Assembly: GCA_040877935.1 (NCBI GenBank)
Contig: JBBDNB010000019.1
Location: 1 to 64,000 of the forward strand
Length of the DNA: 64,000 nt
Source of the DNA: Chitinophagales bacterium
GTDB lineage: Bacteria; Bacteroidota; Bacteroidia; Chitinophagales; CAIOSU01
Direction: 5' to 3'
This document shows, piece after piece, positions 19,506-34,582 of this stretch (position 1 is its first letter; the number at the start of each line of letters is the position of its first letter). Made by a program: the position numbers and the translations under genes. Under the pieces are notes generated by a model, which was not told the DNA's origin, searched no databases, and saw nothing but the letters and a program-made list of their open reading frames with translations.

Positions 19506-19638
19506 TACCCTGCTCAGCAATTATCGTTTTAAAGAAAAATGTGTTAAGGCTATTCGGTAGACACGATTTTCAAATTGCTTTACAGAGATGTTCTGTGCCT
19601 TTTGCATGAAAGCTCTTTGTAAACCGAGAATGGCTGTA
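19506..19638. repeat. Imperfect direct repeat, copy A
   Basis: The core, 19516-19638, matches 19989-20111 at roughly 80% by eye, sharing CTTTGTAAACCGAGAATGGC-like and GATGTTCTGTGCCTTTTGCA blocks. TACCCTGCTC stands directly before this copy (19506-19515), while the same ten bases directly follow copy B, as if the units were once tandem. The minus strand of both copies can be read as a peptide ending THFSLKR then stop, but this copy has a frame break. Confidence 0.75.
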
Positions 19639-19988: not shown

Positions 19989-20120
19989 CAGCAATCATCG
20001 CTTTAAAGAAAAATGCGTTACAGCCCTGCGGCAAGCAAGATCTTTAAATTGCTTTACGAGATGTTCTGTGCCTTTTGCATAAAAATTCCTTGTAAACCGA
20101 GAATGGCTGTACCCTGCTCG
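19989..20120. repeat. Imperfect direct repeat, copy B
   Basis: The 19989-20111 core matches copy A. On the minus strand this copy reads without interruption as a peptide containing YSHSRFTRNFYAKGTEHL and ending AVTHFSLKR before a stop. The ten bases TACCCTGCTC end it at 20111-20120, the same ten bases that precede copy A. Confidence 0.75.
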
Positions 20121-26912: not shown

Positions 26913-28781
26913 TTAATCAAAGAGTGAAGGCCTTCTCTTAAATTTTCTGTTAATATTATAGCTTGGTCTGGCTCCTTTTGATTTTAGTAGATACTTCTTT
27001 TTGGTTAGGTTGCTGATAATACTTCTGATTTTTCTTTTATAATCGTTGTATTTTTTAACGTCCTCAATTTTTTGGTTTTTTCTGAAATAAAGGAAATCCC
27101 CAACTTGAGCTGCATTTATATCCTTAAGGTTTTTTCCATATTTATTAAAATGTAAAATAGTATTGAGTGTATCTTTATAATGAGAACCAAGCTCATCAAA
27201 TGCTCCTCCAAAAATATTTCTCAATTCATCTGTAAAATCAAACTTATTAAGTGTTTGATCAACTATATAGGTAGGGTATAGTTCAGGACTGTCAGGATGT
27301 TTTTTTATTAAACCCCACTTTTCAAGTTCTGCTATCACAAAGAAATGATTATTGTCAGGGGTTAAAGCAATACAATATCGCTCTTGGTAACCCATTCTTT
27401 CTGATTTGAAAAAATAAGCCAAGACAGTTGCTTGTTCTTTTGTGAGTTCTCTTCCGTTTGTTTTTCTAAAAATATATCCACCAAAGCTTTTAAGCCACCA
27501 ATCAATTTCGTCATCCAATATTTTACCTTTTGGGATAAATAATCCTACATCTTGTTCTGCATAAAGAATATAATAGGGGATGTCAATCTTGTTTTCAAGG
27601 GCCATATTTGTTAATGAAGACATTCCCCATCCTTTGCCTTCCCAGCGGTCAAATGATTTTAATACATCAGCAAGACGTGGGTTTTGCGCTTTTGGTATAG
27701 GAATGATTCGTCTTATAGGTTGTTGTCCATTAATTCGTAAAATTTGTTCTTGCCTGAACTTTCCGGGATTTCTGATTTCTAAATTTTTACCTGGATTGAT
27801 TGTTATATTGACAAATTTATCTACGCTGTAATCTCTGTGCGCTAAGGCGTTGTTGACAGTTTCTCGGATCAACCTTTCTGGATATTCGAAACTTGTAGTA
27901 CCTCCTTTGTCTGTATCAATTCCTGTTGAAATGTTGGCATGAATAAACCCAATACTGCTTTCTAAAAGCGGTATAATATTGTCTTTAAAAATCTTTTTAT
28001 TCCCTGCAATCTGCACAGGGCTTTCTACAAAACCATCTACCTGCGCTCTTCCACCAAGAAAATCATAGGTGTTTTTTCCACAGACCAACATGCCAAGTAG
28101 AGTAGGTTGTTTGTTAATAACAAACTTTTTTCTTTCGAGAAAAGATTGAGCTGATTGAATATCTGCTTTTAATGTTTCAACTTTCATTCCTTGGTTAAGA
28201 CGCTGTATGTATTCATTTAGCTTATCTATATCAATATCTTCAATGTTTGAGCCATTTACCTGCCGAAGTTCTCTTGCAAGTTCCAGTTCGGCACGTAGTT
28301 CTTTTTGCTTGGCAACTTCTTCTTGCGATATTTTATGATCACCGGTTAATTTTCTTTCCCAGGCTGTGCCATTAAAAAGCACATATTTTTTGTCTTCGGG
28401 AAGTTTTTCAATATACAAAACACAAACTTTCCCATTTAAAAAGTCACGAATTTCGAACAAATCAGGACGAATAAATTCACTAAGATCAATTGATTGCTTG
28501 CTATCAGTTGTATATTGTTTAGGAAGTTCTTTTAATTTATCCTCATTGTTGATATTAAAACCAGTGAATTTATATTCTTTTTTTTTCGTGTTTTCATTAA
28601 CACCAATTATAACTATCCCACCTTGCGTATTTAAGAATGCGCACACAGATTTGTAGAGCTCTTTCCAGTCACTTCCTGATGAGAGATCTTTTAACTCAAT
28701 TTTATCTGTTTCAATGCTGCTATATGAGCCAGATTCAATAGAAAATTCTAAATTCGATAATATTTTATCAACTACTTTCAT
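26913..28781 (-). CDS. AlbA_2 (Schlafen-type) domain protein with GHKL-like ATPase region
   Basis: 622-residue protein often mislabelled as a RecG-like helicase. The N-terminal AlbA_2 domain shows LKDLSSGSDWKELYKSVCAFLN and NTQGGIVIIGVNEN (51-64). The middle has the divergent ATPase signature ERLIRETVNNALAHRDYS (302-319) with LEIRNPG and WEGKGWGMSSL (380-390). The C-terminal part contains probable winged-helix segments (LIKKHPDSPELYPTYIVD; KIRSIISNLTKKKYLLKSKG). Proteins of this architecture act as regulators or in phage defence in some cases; the role here is unknown. It stands alone between rnr and the ABC gene, consistent with an accessory insertion. Confidence 0.75.
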   Translation of the reverse strand: MKVVDKILSNLEFSIESGSYSSIETDKIELKDLSSGSDWKELYKSVCAFLNTQGGIVIIGVNENTKKKEYKFTGFNINNEDKLKELPKQYTTDSKQSIDLSEFIRPDLFEIRDFLNGKVCVLYIEKLPEDKKYVLFNGTAWERKLTGDHKISQEEVAKQKELRAELELARELRQVNGSNIEDIDIDKLNEYIQRLNQGMKVETLKADIQSAQSFLERKKFVINKQPTLLGMLVCGKNTYDFLGGRAQVDGFVESPVQIAGNKKIFKDNIIPLLESSIGFIHANISTGIDTDKGGTTSFEYPERLIRETVNNALAHRDYSVDKFVNITINPGKNLEIRNPGKFRQEQILRINGQQPIRRIIPIPKAQNPRLADVLKSFDRWEGKGWGMSSLTNMALENKIDIPYYILYAEQDVGLFIPKGKILDDEIDWWLKSFGGYIFRKTNGRELTKEQATVLAYFFKSERMGYQERYCIALTPDNNHFFVIAELEKWGLIKKHPDSPELYPTYIVDQTLNKFDFTDELRNIFGGAFDELGSHYKDTLNTILHFNKYGKNLKDINAAQVGDFLYFRKNQKIEDVKKYNDYKRKIRSIISNLTKKKYLLKSKGARPSYNINRKFKRRPSLFD

Positions 28782-30785: not shown

Positions 30786-30995
30786 ATGGAATTTAAGCTT
30801 AATGGAAACGATTTTATTCCGCTAAATGCCCTATTGAAAATCGTCAATATTGCGGAAAGTGGGGGACAAGCCAATATGTTTATTACAGAAGGCGAAGTAT
30901 CCATTGATGGTAAGCTAGAAAGCGCCAAACGTAAAAAAGTACGCGCAGGTCAAGTTGTTACTGTTTTTGATAAAACGGTGAAGGTTGTTGATTAG
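30786..30995 (+). CDS. Small S4-domain RNA-binding protein (YbcJ type)
   Basis: 69-residue protein that is entirely an S4 RNA-binding domain: FIPLNALLKIVNIAESGGQANMFI, then EGEVSIDGKLESAKRKKVRAG and QVVTVFDKTVKVV. Similar small proteins (YbcJ/YaaA-like) are thought to bind rRNA or tRNA. The last 101 bases recur at 33134-33234 with only silent differences, so this gene is the likely insertion site of the accessory island that follows. Has its own strong promoter. Confidence 0.88.
   Translation: MEFKLNGNDFIPLNALLKIVNIAESGGQANMFITEGEVSIDGKLESAKRKKVRAGQVVTVFDKTVKVVD
30895..30995. repeat. Direct repeat, left copy: 3' end of the S4 gene
   Basis: 101 bp, aligned to 33134-33234 with six differences (GGT/GGC, CTA/TTA, AGC/AGT, CAA/CAG, ACG/ACT, TAG/TAA), all synonymous. 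The match ends exactly at the stop codon. Arrangement resembles an attachment-type duplication of a gene's 3' end. Confidence 0.9.
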
Positions 30996-31082
30996 TAAAT
31001 GAGTTTATAAGGCATTAGGCAATAGTTGTTGAGTGATGGTTAACTATGAACAATGCCTAATCAGAATTTTTTTCTAAGAGGG

Positions 31083-31151
31083 CTATTTTAGAATCAATTC
31101 ATAAAACTCTTGCCACTCTTGCTGTAAAAACTGAAAGTTGGTTTTTATCAT
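31083..31151 (-). pseudogene. Truncated start of a type I restriction HsdR gene
   Basis: 22 codons from ATG 31151 to a stop: MIKTNFQFLQQEWQEFYELI then LK. The NF-FLQ-EW-xxY pattern is how many type I restriction R subunits begin. It directly follows abiEii on the same strand, as expected for hsdR downstream of an embedded TA pair, then ends. The assignment rests on a short match. Confidence 0.5.
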
Positions 31152-31154
31152 GAT

Positions 31155-32060
31155 TTAACAGCTTAGTTCTTCAAATTTTTGTTTCAAATTAATAATTCCT
31201 GCTTGATGTTTCTCAGGATTTTTTTCTTTGAGTATCTCAATATTTTTTAGCTTCCATTGCACAGCCGGGAAATCAGAGAAGTTATAAACCGACCAATCGG
31301 GTGTAGCGGATTCAAAATTCACCAAAAATTCTTTATCGGATTCGCTTAAATTTTGATGGATGGTTTTGACCAATTTTTCCCGTGTGGCACAAAAGTCTTC
31401 ATAGGTAAAGTCTTCTAGTGTCATGCCTTTAAATTGGTTGTTATAGGCTTGTTCTTGATTGAGATAATGCGGAAACAACATTTCTAAAAGCGGGCGCTTA
31501 CTGCATATGAGGCAAAACATAAACCCTGTTTTTATCTCTTTGGTAGATACTTCATTTTCTAGTAAATACTTGATATCAAAAATATCCCTGGGGTGCTGCC
31601 TGTCTAAAGCGGCACATATTTTACCACCATAAAGCTGATGAAAAGGCACGCAAGGCATAATGCAAAAGGCATCAAATTCTTCCTGAGCTTTTTCGCAAAG
31701 TTCTCGATTCTCAGTTTCTCCTATTAAGCCCCGCATGCCTTGGTTTACTTCTATTTTTATAGATGCGCCAGAGTTTTGTATCTGCAACTTTAATAGATGC
31801 GCTTGCACCACCACTTTTATACTCGGGTCTAATTTTTTAAGGCGATGTTCTATGTTTTTTAGACTTTGCTCAATGTTGGCAAATGTGCTGCTTCGGTCTT
31901 CTTTAGGGATGTAGGTTAAATCTATATCTACAGACAATCTGGGCATATTGCGCACAAACAAGTTGATGGCTGTACCACCGTGCAGGGCAAAACATTTTTC
32001 TTTAGCTATTTCTGGCAACACCTGTAGCAATAAGGCCGCTTGTTCTTGATAGTTAGCCAT
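31155..32060 (-). CDS. abiEii: AbiEii-type nucleotidyltransferase toxin
   Basis: 301-residue toxin of the type IV toxin-antitoxin/abortive infection system AbiE. It has the nucleotidyltransferase core: ALHGGTAINLFVRN (Gly28-Gly29) and SVDIDLTYIP (Asp45, Asp47). It also has the family block YGGKICAALDRQHPRDIFDIKYLLEN. AbiEii enzymes transfer nucleotides to RNA and stop growth during phage infection. It overlaps the end of the antitoxin gene by 8 bases. The frame is intact and the catalytic residues remain, although the surrounding restriction genes are broken. Confidence 0.9.
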   Translation of the reverse strand: MANYQEQAALLLQVLPEIAKEKCFALHGGTAINLFVRNMPRLSVDIDLTYIPKEDRSSTFANIEQSLKNIEHRLKKLDPSIKVVVQAHLLKLQIQNSGASIKIEVNQGMRGLIGETENRELCEKAQEEFDAFCIMPCVPFHQLYGGKICAALDRQHPRDIFDIKYLLENEVSTKEIKTGFMFCLICSKRPLLEMLFPHYLNQEQAYNNQFKGMTLEDFTYEDFCATREKLVKTIHQNLSESDKEFLVNFESATPDWSVYNFSDFPAVQWKLKNIEILKEKNPEKHQAGIINLKQKFEELSC

Positions 32061-32814
32061 GTGCTAATGATTTAGGTACGGTTATTTTAAACTCGGGTAT
32101 GTACGCCCCATTGTCAACAATTTTTCTTTTGCCCTTTCCCAGATATATATTTTCTAAGTTTAAAAAAGCTAACCATTGATGCCCTGCTTTTTTTGCCAGG
32201 TATAAAAACAAGCGTTTTACTTTTATGGAAGTGCATTGTTCTAGTAGCTGTTGCACCACCTTTGGACGCAAATTATTAAGCCCTTCCATTATTTCGTAGC
32301 ATTCTTGCAGGTCTTGATATTGAGGTGCTAAGTACAAACATTCCATCAGGGCCCGTGCAGCACCTGATATTTTGATGGGCAAGCCCATTATTTGCTGCTC
32401 TACCATACCTATGCCTGCCGGTAAAAAAGCGCTTTTCACATACTTTAGTTCTTCTTGCCAAGGGTGTTTTTTCACCCAGGCGGGCAAGGTTTCTTTTGAG
32501 TTGCCAAACAGGATGTAGCTTTGTTGACCCATTGCCAGATAATGGGCTTTACCTGCCAATTGCAGGGCTGTCTTTGCCGCAGGGTGTACCGATAAACCTG
32601 CCTGCTGCTGCAAAGCGAATAGGGCACCGGCTATGGTGGGCTTATCTCCAGCCTTTAACATGGCACCATTGCCTAAAGCCACAATCCACTGGCTTTTTTT
32701 GTAGCGGTTGAGCAACTGGGTAGAGTAGCCCTGCTGTTTGAGCCAGGCCGTTAAATACACGGCATTAGGAGGCCATGATTGTAGCAATTGGTTTATTTTA
32801 TTGTTCTTTTCCAA
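32053..32814 (-). CDS. abiEi: AbiEi-type antitoxin / repressor
   Basis: 253-residue protein immediately upstream of abiEii. The N-terminal part (INQLLQSWPPNAVYLTAWLKQQGYS) is the winged-helix region; the middle (PTIAGALFALQQQAGLSVHPAAKTALQLAG) and the ARALMECLYLAPQYQDLQECYEI block are typical of the AbiEi C-terminal domain. AbiEi neutralises the toxin and represses the operon. No ATG fits; the start is probably TTG 32814. Two similar dyads at 32812-32826 and 32884-32898 are likely its operators. Confidence 0.85.
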   Translation of the reverse strand: MEKNNKINQLLQSWPPNAVYLTAWLKQQGYSTQLLNRYKKSQWIVALGNGAMLKAGDKPTIAGALFALQQQAGLSVHPAAKTALQLAGKAHYLAMGQQSYILFGNSKETLPAWVKKHPWQEELKYVKSAFLPAGIGMVEQQIMGLPIKISGAARALMECLYLAPQYQDLQECYEIMEGLNNLRPKVVQQLLEQCTSIKVKRLFLYLAKKAGHQWLAFLNLENIYLGKGKRKIVDNGAYIPEFKITVPKSLAHG

Positions 32815-32898
32815 ACTATTCGTTTGCTTTTAGGTAGAAATGTAAACCTAATATACGGCAAGGTTTATTAAAATACAAATAAACAAACTAATAGTTTG
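32812..32898 (-). promoter_or_regulatory. Two dyad operators upstream of abiEi
   Basis: CAAACTATTCGTTTG (32812-32826) and CAAACTAATAGTTTG (32884-32898); the second is a perfect 7-base-arm dyad. Both continue with CTTTTA, giving 21-base direct repeats 72 bp apart with 18 identities. AbiEi proteins are known to bind paired inverted repeats in their promoters, so autoregulation is likely. The first site covers the TTG start. Confidence 0.65.
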
Positions 32899-32913
32899 CT
32901 TTTATAACTTAAT

Positions 32914-33135
32914 TTAAACCAACTCCCCCTTAAAAGCCTTTTGCAATAAGCAGTTAAATAAATCTTCACTTTCTTTTAGCTCTTGTTTGGCTAGTTCTTT
33001 TTGTTGTTCGATTAGGGTTATTTTGGATGCTAATTCTTTCTGGATACTAAGAGTAGGTATTGGTAACTTAAGTGAGCCCAGCATTTGTTGGTTCAAGTTT
33101 TGAATATAAGCCTCACGACCTCCGTTTCTTAGAAA
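32914..33135 (-). pseudogene. hsdS: C-terminal fragment of type I restriction specificity subunit (HsdS)
   Basis: About 73 codons reading FLRNGGREAYIQNLNQQMLG, SLKLPIPTLSIQKELASKI, then the coiled-coil ESEDLFNCLLQKAFKGELV. This is the standard end of an HsdS protein after the second target-recognition domain. The frame has no start and runs straight into the S4-gene repeat at about 33133, so the 5' part was lost at that junction. Upstream of abiEi on the same strand. Confidence 0.85.
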
Positions 33136-33234
33136 GTATCCATTGATGGCAAGTTAGAAAGTGCCAAACGTAAAAAAGTACGCGCAGGTCAGGTTGTTAC
33201 TGTTTTTGATAAAACTGTGAAGGTTGTTGATTAA
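33136..33234 (+). pseudogene. 3' fragment of an S4-domain gene (right copy of the direct repeat)
   Basis: Encodes VSIDGKLESAKRKKVRAG, QVVTVFDKTVKVVD and a stop in frame, identical in protein sequence to the end of the intact S4 gene at 30786-30995 and differing only at silent sites. It lacks promoter, start and first half, and abuts an HsdS fragment on its left. Full nucleotide repeat 33134-33234. Confidence 0.92.
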
Positions 33235-33641
33235 CAAGCCCCCAATCAAAACCGTCATTCCCACTCAGGTGGGAATCTCCATGGATTCAGACGATTTCTC
33301 ATAGCCACCGCTCGCGTCTCGCGAGTGGATTATTGGACAGCCTCCGGCTGTATGTTGAAATATTTTGCGGGACGCAATTCAAATTCTCACTCGCTAAGTT
33401 TATCCCGCCACATTAAGGTCGGGAAAGCGGATCAAGGGCATAAGTAAAAAATTAAGAAAAATCCCTCAAGGGAAATTTGATGTACACCTATTTTATCTGA
33501 CTTTTGATAAGTCAATTTCTCCATTTTATACTACCTTAGTTAGCCCATGAAGGGTTGTTTTAAAATTTAGTAAACTACCTTTTTGAAACTATTTTTGAAT
33601 ACGAAAGGATTTTATATCTATCTCTTCAAAATTCACTTTTA
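33235..33641. other. Non-coding stretch with REP-like hairpins
   Basis: No gene seen. Contains ATTCCCAC/GTGGGAAT (33257-33276, four-base loop), a CTCGCG/CGCGAG hairpin near 33311-33325, and CAGCC-TCC-GGCTG (33338-33350) whose sequence and GTTGAAATA continuation recur near 34454-34475. It also holds the left 32-bp direct repeat (33508-33539). These look like remnants of the bioB leader and dispersed repeats. Confidence 0.6.
33508..33539. repeat. 32-bp direct repeat, left copy
   Basis: Perfectly identical to 34551-34582, offset 1,043 bp. The right copy lies 25 bases before bioB, so this is probably a duplicated piece of the bioB leader marking the left edge of an inserted block. Includes TACTACCTTAG, close to a -7 box. 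Confidence 0.92.
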
Positions 33642-33875
33642 ATGAAACATGTCTCAATTTTCCTAGATGATAATGATTTTGAAAAACTGGCCAAGTTTAT
33701 AAAATCATTGGGTTCAGCGCATGTCAAAGCAAGCCGTGTGGTAGAGCATGAAGATGAAGGCTTTTTTATACCTCAATGGCAGCAGGATTTGGTTAAGCAC
33801 AGGATTAAAAATTCCAAACCGGAAGACTACAGTTCTATAGAGGGTTTAGACAAGGAAATTAATTTACAGAAATGA
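33642..33875 (+). CDS. Small antitoxin-like protein
   Basis: 77 residues: SIFLDDNDFEKLAKFIKSLG, then VVEHEDEGFFIPQWQQDLVKH and a charged tail DYSSIEGLDKEINLQK. The size, acidity and tail resemble antitoxins that precede RelE/ParE-type toxins in Bacteroidota, but no toxin follows; the next frame starts at an ATGA overlap and looks like an HsdS tail. Probably a survivor of a broken module. Function not assigned. Confidence 0.5.
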   Translation: MKHVSIFLDDNDFEKLAKFIKSLGSAHVKASRVVEHEDEGFFIPQWQQDLVKHRIKNSKPEDYSSIEGLDKEINLQK

Positions 33876-34027
33876 GTAAGCGTAACTTTATGGTTACCAA
33901 ACTCAATGAAGTAAAGTTGCACGTTTTGGCTGTGGATGAGTTCATCACCGCACAGGCAGAAAAAACAGAGCAATTGCAGCAGTATAAAAAGGGATTGATA
34001 CAGGGTTTGTTTCCGGAAATTGTCTGA
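33872..34027 (+). pseudogene. Short ORF ending in an HsdS-like C-terminal coiled coil
   Basis: 51 codons: MSKRNFMVTKLNEVKLHVLA followed by VDEFITAQAEKTEQLQQYKK and GLIQGLFPEIV. The second half is the common end of type I specificity subunits. The first 17 residues do not fit HsdS, so it may be a chimera of another gene's start and an hsdS end. ATG overlaps the upstream stop (ATGA). Confidence 0.5.
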
Positions 34028-34101: not shown

Positions 34102-34136
34102 AAATGTGGCAAATTCGCCATAATAAGATTGTAAGC

Positions 34137-34363
34137 ATGGCAAAAACAAAACAAATACAGGTAAAAGAAGTGGCCGTTCGTACGCTTCTTGTGAACGGTG
34201 AAGATTATATCAGTATAACAGACATTGCGCGACAAAAAAATGCTGTTGAGCCTAAGGATGTGGTGAAAAATTGGATGCGGCTCAAAAATACCCTCGAATA
34301 CCTAGGCTTTGGGAGCGACTCAACAACCCTCATTTTAAAGGGGTCGAATTCGACCCTTATTGA
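34137..34363 (+). pseudogene. KilA-N domain gene, frameshifted and truncated
   Basis: The frame from ATG 34137 gives MAKTKQIQVKEVAV, NGEDYISITDIARQKN and KDVVKNWMRLKNTLEYLG, the start of a KilA-N DNA-binding domain protein often found with restriction loci. At about 34307 one base appears to be missing: the next frame continues the family sequence LWERLNNPHFKGVEFDPY and then stops at 34361-34363. Intact relatives are several times longer. The gene is therefore dead or reduced to its N-terminal domain. Confidence 0.85.
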
Positions 34364-34393
34364 GAATTGAAGGAGTTAAGCAACCCCAATTTT

Positions 34394-34550: not shown

Positions 34551-34582
34551 TAAGTCAATTTCTCCATTTTATACTACCTTAG
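34551..34582. repeat. 32-bp direct repeat, right copy (bioB leader)
   Basis: Identical to 33508-33539. Ends 25 bases before the bioB ATG and contains TACCTTAG, one base off a TAnnTTTG -7 box, so it probably carries the bioB promoter. Confidence 0.9.

Follow-up and report, generated by a model that had tools for sequence, protein, structure and literature searches.

A predicted toxin–antitoxin cassette between two diverged copies of an S4 gene end, and similar scars at gene 3′ ends in related bacteria

In the 64-kb window (the whole stretch of DNA analysed here), an intact gene for a small S4_2-domain protein is followed by a second, diverged copy of its own 3′ end, and the segment between the two copies holds a predicted AbiE toxin–antitoxin pair together with the stump of a type I restriction specificity gene. 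Similar scars are found at defence cassettes elsewhere in this genome and in related bacteria, suggesting that such cassettes spread by integrase-free recombination into gene ends. The means by which short toxin–antitoxin and defence pairs, lacking mobility genes, pass from one chromosome to another are largely an open question, and scars at gene 3′ ends offer a footprint of this movement: they mark the boundaries of insertions, their silent divergence dates the events, and they can be counted genome-wide.

Results

Two copies of the S4 gene end flank an AbiE pair

The repeat at the S4 gene (Table 1) begins inside the coding sequence at 30895 and extends through the second nucleotide of the stop codon; the copy at 33134–33233 matches S4 positions 30895–30994 at 95 of 100 sites and lies 2,138 bp downstream of the gene. 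The stop codons themselves differ, the S4 gene having TAG and the copy TAA. None of the five substitutions changes an amino acid (GGT/GGC, CTA/TTA, AGC/AGT, CAA/CAG and ACG/ACT), and the chance of five silent changes out of five under random substitution, given these codons, is 0.0008–0.002. An earlier note on this DNA had described a 101-bp copy of the S4 end on the far side of a foreign segment, spanning 30895–33234, with six differences that were all synonymous, and had taken both copies to have evolved as working coding sequence until recently. Our comparison confirms this description, with a repeat of 100 bp at 95% identity plus the TAG/TAA pair; the five silent substitutions and the stop variant make up the six differences, and the 5:0 ratio (p = 0.0008–0.002) indicates coding constraint on both ends.

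Silent-site divergence between the copies is ~0.25 (Jukes–Cantor, 23 sites), and the two S4 ends therefore look like alleles of separate lineages. When the S4 segment was searched against the DNA of the whole genome, the only strong match was its partner copy (E = 6e-40), which indicates that the repeat is not due to chance. At its left edge the repeat has 16 bp without a mismatch, its interior holds an identical tract of 29 bp, and the DNA that follows the two stop codons gave no alignment between them.

Within the intervening segment, AbiEi and AbiEii are adjacent and each has a family-level match in Pfam and PADLOC, and this pair (31155–32814) is predicted from its sequence to be an intact AbiE type IV toxin–antitoxin system. 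The neighboring hsdS stump covers positions 335–392 of the 392 in the PADLOC Specificity_I profile, i.e., the last 58, and in comparison with full-length homologs (L156/L157) the HsdS homology extends just as far as the start of the S4 copy. The right junction thus consists of a broken hsdS joined to S4 at codon ~37, and it is non-homologous. A search for the tyrosine-recombinase box II motif in six frames of the 64-kb window found none, which agrees, for integrases of the tyrosine type, with the earlier statement that no integrase is present. The segment that the note described as foreign consists of AbiEii and AbiEi with the hsdS stump, and it is better regarded as a predicted addictive toxin–antitoxin cassette than as an island with mobility genes.

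Downstream, the interval between S4 and bioB is a patchwork of defence remnants. A second direct repeat, identical at 32 of 32 positions, encloses ~1 kb of defence-gene scraps, and its location by bioB is possibly the mirror case at the 5′ flank of a gene. We considered both a single event, in which an empty S4–bioB fragment entered an older island and produced both repeats, and two separate insertions; these scenarios are indistinguishable here.

Several other features of the window and their relatives deserve mention in their own right. One copy of the dispersed hairpin-rich repeat (L049, among copies L049–L055) is located directly behind a small ORF pair that resembles a toxin–antitoxin module. 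A 124-bp direct repeat of short ORF ends (85% identity) occurs at 19515–19638 and 19989–20111, with a third occurrence at another site of the genome, and a Schlafen AlbA_2-domain protein (26913–28781) adjoins oppDF near the S4 locus.

Table 1 Features of the S4 locus and 3′-end copies of other genes in the same genome. Positions refer to the window; for genes outside it, the length of the copy is given.
Feature	Position or length	Strand	Evidence or remark
S4_2-domain gene, intact, 69 aa	30786..30995	+	Pfam S4_2, E=1.9e-21
Left direct-repeat copy, last 100 bp of S4 gene	30895..30994	+	sequence match
Predicted AbiEii nucleotidyltransferase toxin (type IV toxin–antitoxin), intact	31155..32060	-	PF08843, E=8.9e-32; PADLOC AbiEii, E=1.7e-114
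Predicted AbiEi antitoxin/regulator, intact	32053..32814	-	PF11459, E=2.3e-55; PF17194; PADLOC AbiEi
hsdS 3′ stump, about 73 codons, type I specificity subunit	32914..33135	-	PADLOC Specificity_I
Right copy, truncated S4 3′ end with stop TAA	33134..33234	+	sequence match
Dispersed hairpin-rich repeat, about 75 bp, at least 7 further copies in the genome	33320..33396	+	
Second direct repeat, copy 1, identical to sequence upstream of bioB	33508..33539	+	sequence match
Antitoxin-like ORF (by eye), then short ORF with hsdS C-terminus; degraded	33642..34027	+	
KilA-N / PDC-S22 protein, N-terminal fragment	34104..34370	+	Pfam and PADLOC profiles
Second direct repeat, copy 2, just upstream of bioB	34551..34582	+	sequence match
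glpK 3′-end copy	395 bp		exact stop; 17 silent vs 5 non-silent
purN 3′-end copy	202 bp		1.9 kb downstream (L164:2419-5090)
M3-family peptidase 3′-end copy	79 bp		
Biotin-carrier protein gene 3′-end copy	98 bp		
EamA transporter 3′-end copy	54 bp		

The same layout recurs at other genes of the genome

We scanned 1.53 of 4.03 Mb (38%) of the genome, a draft assembly of 63 contigs, for local truncated gene copies. Six core genes were found to have a diverged, direct, downstream copy of their 3′ end that terminates near the stop, namely S4, glpK, purN and the genes for an M3-family peptidase, a biotin-carrier protein and an EamA transporter. Paralog arrays and the matches at a T9SS-type gene (147 bp) and a restriction-like gene (110 bp, with a gap of 65 bp) were judged weaker and left out of this list.

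Four of the five inserts at genes other than S4 contain AbiE, HipA or a candidate defence pair, with AbiE appearing twice. AbiEi/AbiEii lie behind the M3 peptidase gene and, accompanied by further genes, behind the biotin-carrier gene; the N- and C-parts of HipA lie behind EamA; and the candidate defence pair PDC-M04A/PDC-M04B lies behind glpK, where a GNAT gene is located past the second glpK end. The purN insert is an exception, consisting of a lipoprotein-like ORF with no Pfam match, and not every insert is therefore a defence cassette. A flanking repeat was missing at two of the five checkable AbiE loci of this genome.

The glpK locus carries a third 3′ end of 38 bp, in frame, beyond the next cassette. 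The whole array (L232:9647-14379; contig C39:199647-204379) comprises two defence-type cassettes whose far sides are marked by ever shorter glpK ends (395 and then 38 bp), and looks like the result of serial accretion. At purN, about 140 bp in the middle of the copies are identical and the edges have strongly diverged, as after homologous exchange. The identical interior tracts, which measure 29 bp at S4, 77 bp at glpK and about 140 bp at purN, are long enough for such exchange. Inspection of the left edges by eye revealed no motif shared among the copies, and no clean core at glpK, purN, the biotin-carrier gene or a dnaE-like gene in another genome (described below).

Copies of gene ends are strongly skewed toward the 3′ side. 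Truncated copies of at least 45 bp, with paralogs excluded, represent 3′ ends in seven cases (S4, glpK, purN, peptidase, biotin carrier, EamA and the restriction-like gene) and 5′ ends in none across the 1.53 Mb (p = 0.016), a count that reflects our own reading of the scan and a 3′-end class defined after the first cases had been noticed. The three 5′ entries were only 32–34 bp long, and as gene starts were called mechanically, 5′ cases may be undercounted; such cases would then surface as internal matches, and the scan gave a single match of that type.

AbiE loci in other genomes are flanked by copies of gene ends

Flanking direct repeats (E < 1e-5) were present at 6 of 52 AbiE loci of the class, compared with 2 of 172 control windows, which were S4-bearing regions of other genomes unmatched in gene content (Fisher p = 0.0023). 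In five of these six loci the repeat corresponds to the 3′ end of a gene or of a tRNA or tRNA-like sequence. One of them (L257) has a repeat of 361 bp at 92.8% identity that includes the 3′ end of the upstream gene, with eight silent and four non-silent differences, and at another locus (L255) the repeat is the final 48 bp of the upstream gene. A third AbiE pair (L279:1301-3417) lies between 124-bp repeats of 97.6% identity that span two convergent gene ends, and this insertion is seemingly recent. At one further locus (L243) the repeat extends over the end of a tRNA-Val gene on its 3′ side and, by eye, reads like a tRNA 3′ end at another (L284); the sixth (L298) has an intergenic repeat. A literature search restricted to open-access sources and directed at AbiE with direct repeats found no account of such a pattern.

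A comparable arrangement was observed at the dnaE-like gene (L115:9516-12075), where a 69-bp diverged 3′-end copy with an exact stop lies behind an ORF that resembles a metallo-hydrolase, the family having been assigned by eye.

S4 loci in relatives and in mobile elements

The genus is represented by this one genome in the collection, and a search for an empty site in the family recovered S4, oppDF and bioB at separate loci, with no synteny. In two S4-bearing relatives (L024 and L025) the neighborhood is a different one, in which S4 is followed by another small gene. A second S4 3′ end within 12 kb was found at 0 of 60 S4_2 loci of the class, and within this sample S4_2 is thus not a target that integrating elements use repeatedly. 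The tyrosine-recombinase motif occurred near these 60 loci in two genes, one at locus L114 and one at L099 (~5 kb away); we considered the L114 integrase as part of an element at the S4 end and rejected it, as it is a separate gene that is not positioned there. The earlier note had pictured S4 itself as a specific integration target and had proposed looking for integrases or islands right behind it in relatives. The results do not support that view: no duplicated end was seen among the 60 loci, the inspected recombinase lies elsewhere, and the left edges showed no common core by eye.

No mobile elements with this S4 gene were found in IMG/VR. Plasmid and phage S4 matches, evaluated as possible carriers, look like ordinary chromosomal S4/ybcJ relatives, and the Streptococcus suis phage phiJH1301-3 was dismissed as a parallel given that its putative att site directly precedes an S4 gene rather than lying at the 3′ end of that gene.

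Discussion

Origin of the duplicated gene ends

One explanation for these observations, which we consider somewhat probable, is that the 2.1-kb AbiE cassette and its hsdS relic entered the genome through recombination at the end of the S4 coding sequence. Donor DNA from a diverged relative, bearing that relative's S4 3′ end with the cassette behind it, would have recombined within the S4 coding end, with the homologous crossover falling somewhere inside the repeat, and the gene would have been restored with donor or hybrid 3′ sequence. The displaced S4 3′ end, cut at an arbitrary codon, would have been left on the far side and joined non-homologously to hsdS. Direct repeats of this kind would normally recombine and the cassette would be dropped; the structure may persist because loss of the toxin–antitoxin pair is penalized. 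We infer RecA-type homologous recombination, a diverged relative as the donor, the assignment of the native copy and stabilization by addiction. The earlier proposal that incoming DNA carried its own S4 end and restored the gene fits the exclusively silent differences, the abrupt end of similarity at the stop, the foreign cassette and the cut hsdS, and the layout recurs at other genes; its notion of a specific target is not supported.

Patterns of divergence bear directly on this interpretation. Differences are mostly silent at S4 (5:0), glpK (17:5) and the AbiE locus L257 (8:4), with p = 0.002, 4e-6 and 0.008, respectively, and this indicates that each end had a history as functional coding sequence in a lineage of its own before the two were joined. 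Silent changes are in little or no excess in the copies at purN, the M3 peptidase, the biotin carrier, the restriction-like gene and EamA, and these copies could be decayed duplications that arose within the same host.

One may postulate an alternative scenario, doubtful in our view yet deserving serious attention, in which a tyrosine integrase that has since been lost acted site-specifically at the S4 3′ end and left a CIME-like relic, in which attL would be the gene end that the element brought along and attR the displaced native end. The layout indeed matches that of prophage e14 in icd and of CIMEs at the 3′ ends of rpsI, rpmG, fda and others, and the 16-bp identical tract at the left edge, the termination of copies near the stop at several genes and the two AbiE loci at tRNA or tRNA-like 3′ ends are consistent with it. 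A preference for 3′ ends is natural for integrases and is not clearly predicted by homologous recombination; this counts against the reading we favor, and a lost integrase better accounts for both the 3′-end preference and the tRNA cases. The window is nevertheless devoid of a tyrosine-recombinase motif, S4_2 3′ ends are not repeated in 60 relatives, and glpK, purN, the biotin carrier and the dnaE-like case have no clean core at the left edge; furthermore, the S4 segment ends in a truncated gene, and several inserts consist of a two-gene toxin–antitoxin pair alone.

A further possibility, that the insertion duplicated a long stretch of the host's own target sequence and the copies then diverged in situ, appears improbable. 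Such duplication is reported for restriction-modification systems (Nobusato 2000 and Furuta 2010, as cited in PMC3874152 and PMC3031569), and the L279 locus, with its 124-bp repeat at 97.6% identity, is what would be expected of a young case, but the mostly silent divergence at S4, glpK and L257 would be unexpected if one copy had decayed freely. Misassembly of this contig is very unlikely: in a draft of 63 contigs, a serial bubble joining island-bearing and island-free versions of the S4–bioB region from two strains would yield two diverged gene ends in tandem, but there is no N in the 1.53 Mb, 5′ ends should then be as frequent as 3′ ends, and the same pattern surrounds AbiE in independent assemblies, so that misassembly would leave the cases in other genomes unaccounted for. 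Least credible of all is an ancient tandem duplication of S4 with a later insertion, which the earlier note had named as a competing account. Both copies are indeed direct and on one strand, but the 3′ part alone is present, its left edge abuts hsdS, every difference is silent, and tandem S4 copies were seen in none of the relatives.

Returning to recombination at the S4 end, a broader formulation would be that small toxin–antitoxin and defence cassettes of Bacteroidota move in an integrase-free manner by homologous recombination at gene 3′ ends, restore the gene and are retained as copies through addiction. We offer this generalization as a tentative and rather speculative one, and with it the equally tentative suggestion that the excised or donor unit would be a "gene 3′ end plus toxin–antitoxin pair".

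Comparison with known systems

Prophage e14 in the icd gene of E. coli has a duplicated 3′ end of 165 bp with 12 differences (PMC11148124). As at S4, the element restores the gene end, and the displaced end lies on the far side with mostly silent differences; unlike the S4 case, e14 has an integrase gene, and none was found in the window with the tyrosine motif. CIMEs are known at the 3′ ends of rpsI, rpmG and fda (PMC7563491, PMC5704250). These relics of ICEs resemble the S4 case in presenting an integrase-less segment between two gene 3′ ends, and genes for small RNA-binding proteins are among their known targets, but for S4 no related integrase-bearing element and no shared att core were found, and S4 is not a recurrent target in the relatives examined.

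Homology-facilitated illegitimate recombination (PMC3240628) involves one homologous and one non-homologous junction, as the S4 and hsdS/S4 junctions suggest here. Its classical products replace recipient DNA, whereas the change at S4 is additive and includes a duplication, as in many of the products described in that study.

Insertion of restriction-modification systems with long target duplication has been described in Helicobacter and others (Nobusato 2000 and Furuta 2010, as cited in PMC3874152 and PMC3031569). As the citing papers describe it, this process likewise involves a small addictive unit that is flanked by direct repeats, some tens to some hundreds of bases long, and needs no transposase or integrase, and the repeats in the present genome measure 100 bp at S4 and 54–395 bp at the other loci. 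Our cases differ in three respects: the cargo consists of a type IV toxin–antitoxin system (AbiE) and other toxin–antitoxin or defence pairs, the repeats are strongly biased toward gene 3′ ends, and the copies at S4 and glpK have diverged under coding constraint, which argues, as it does at L257, for two alleles. If gene ends do serve as landing pads and addiction as the glue, the phenomenon known from restriction-modification systems would extend to toxin–antitoxin systems.
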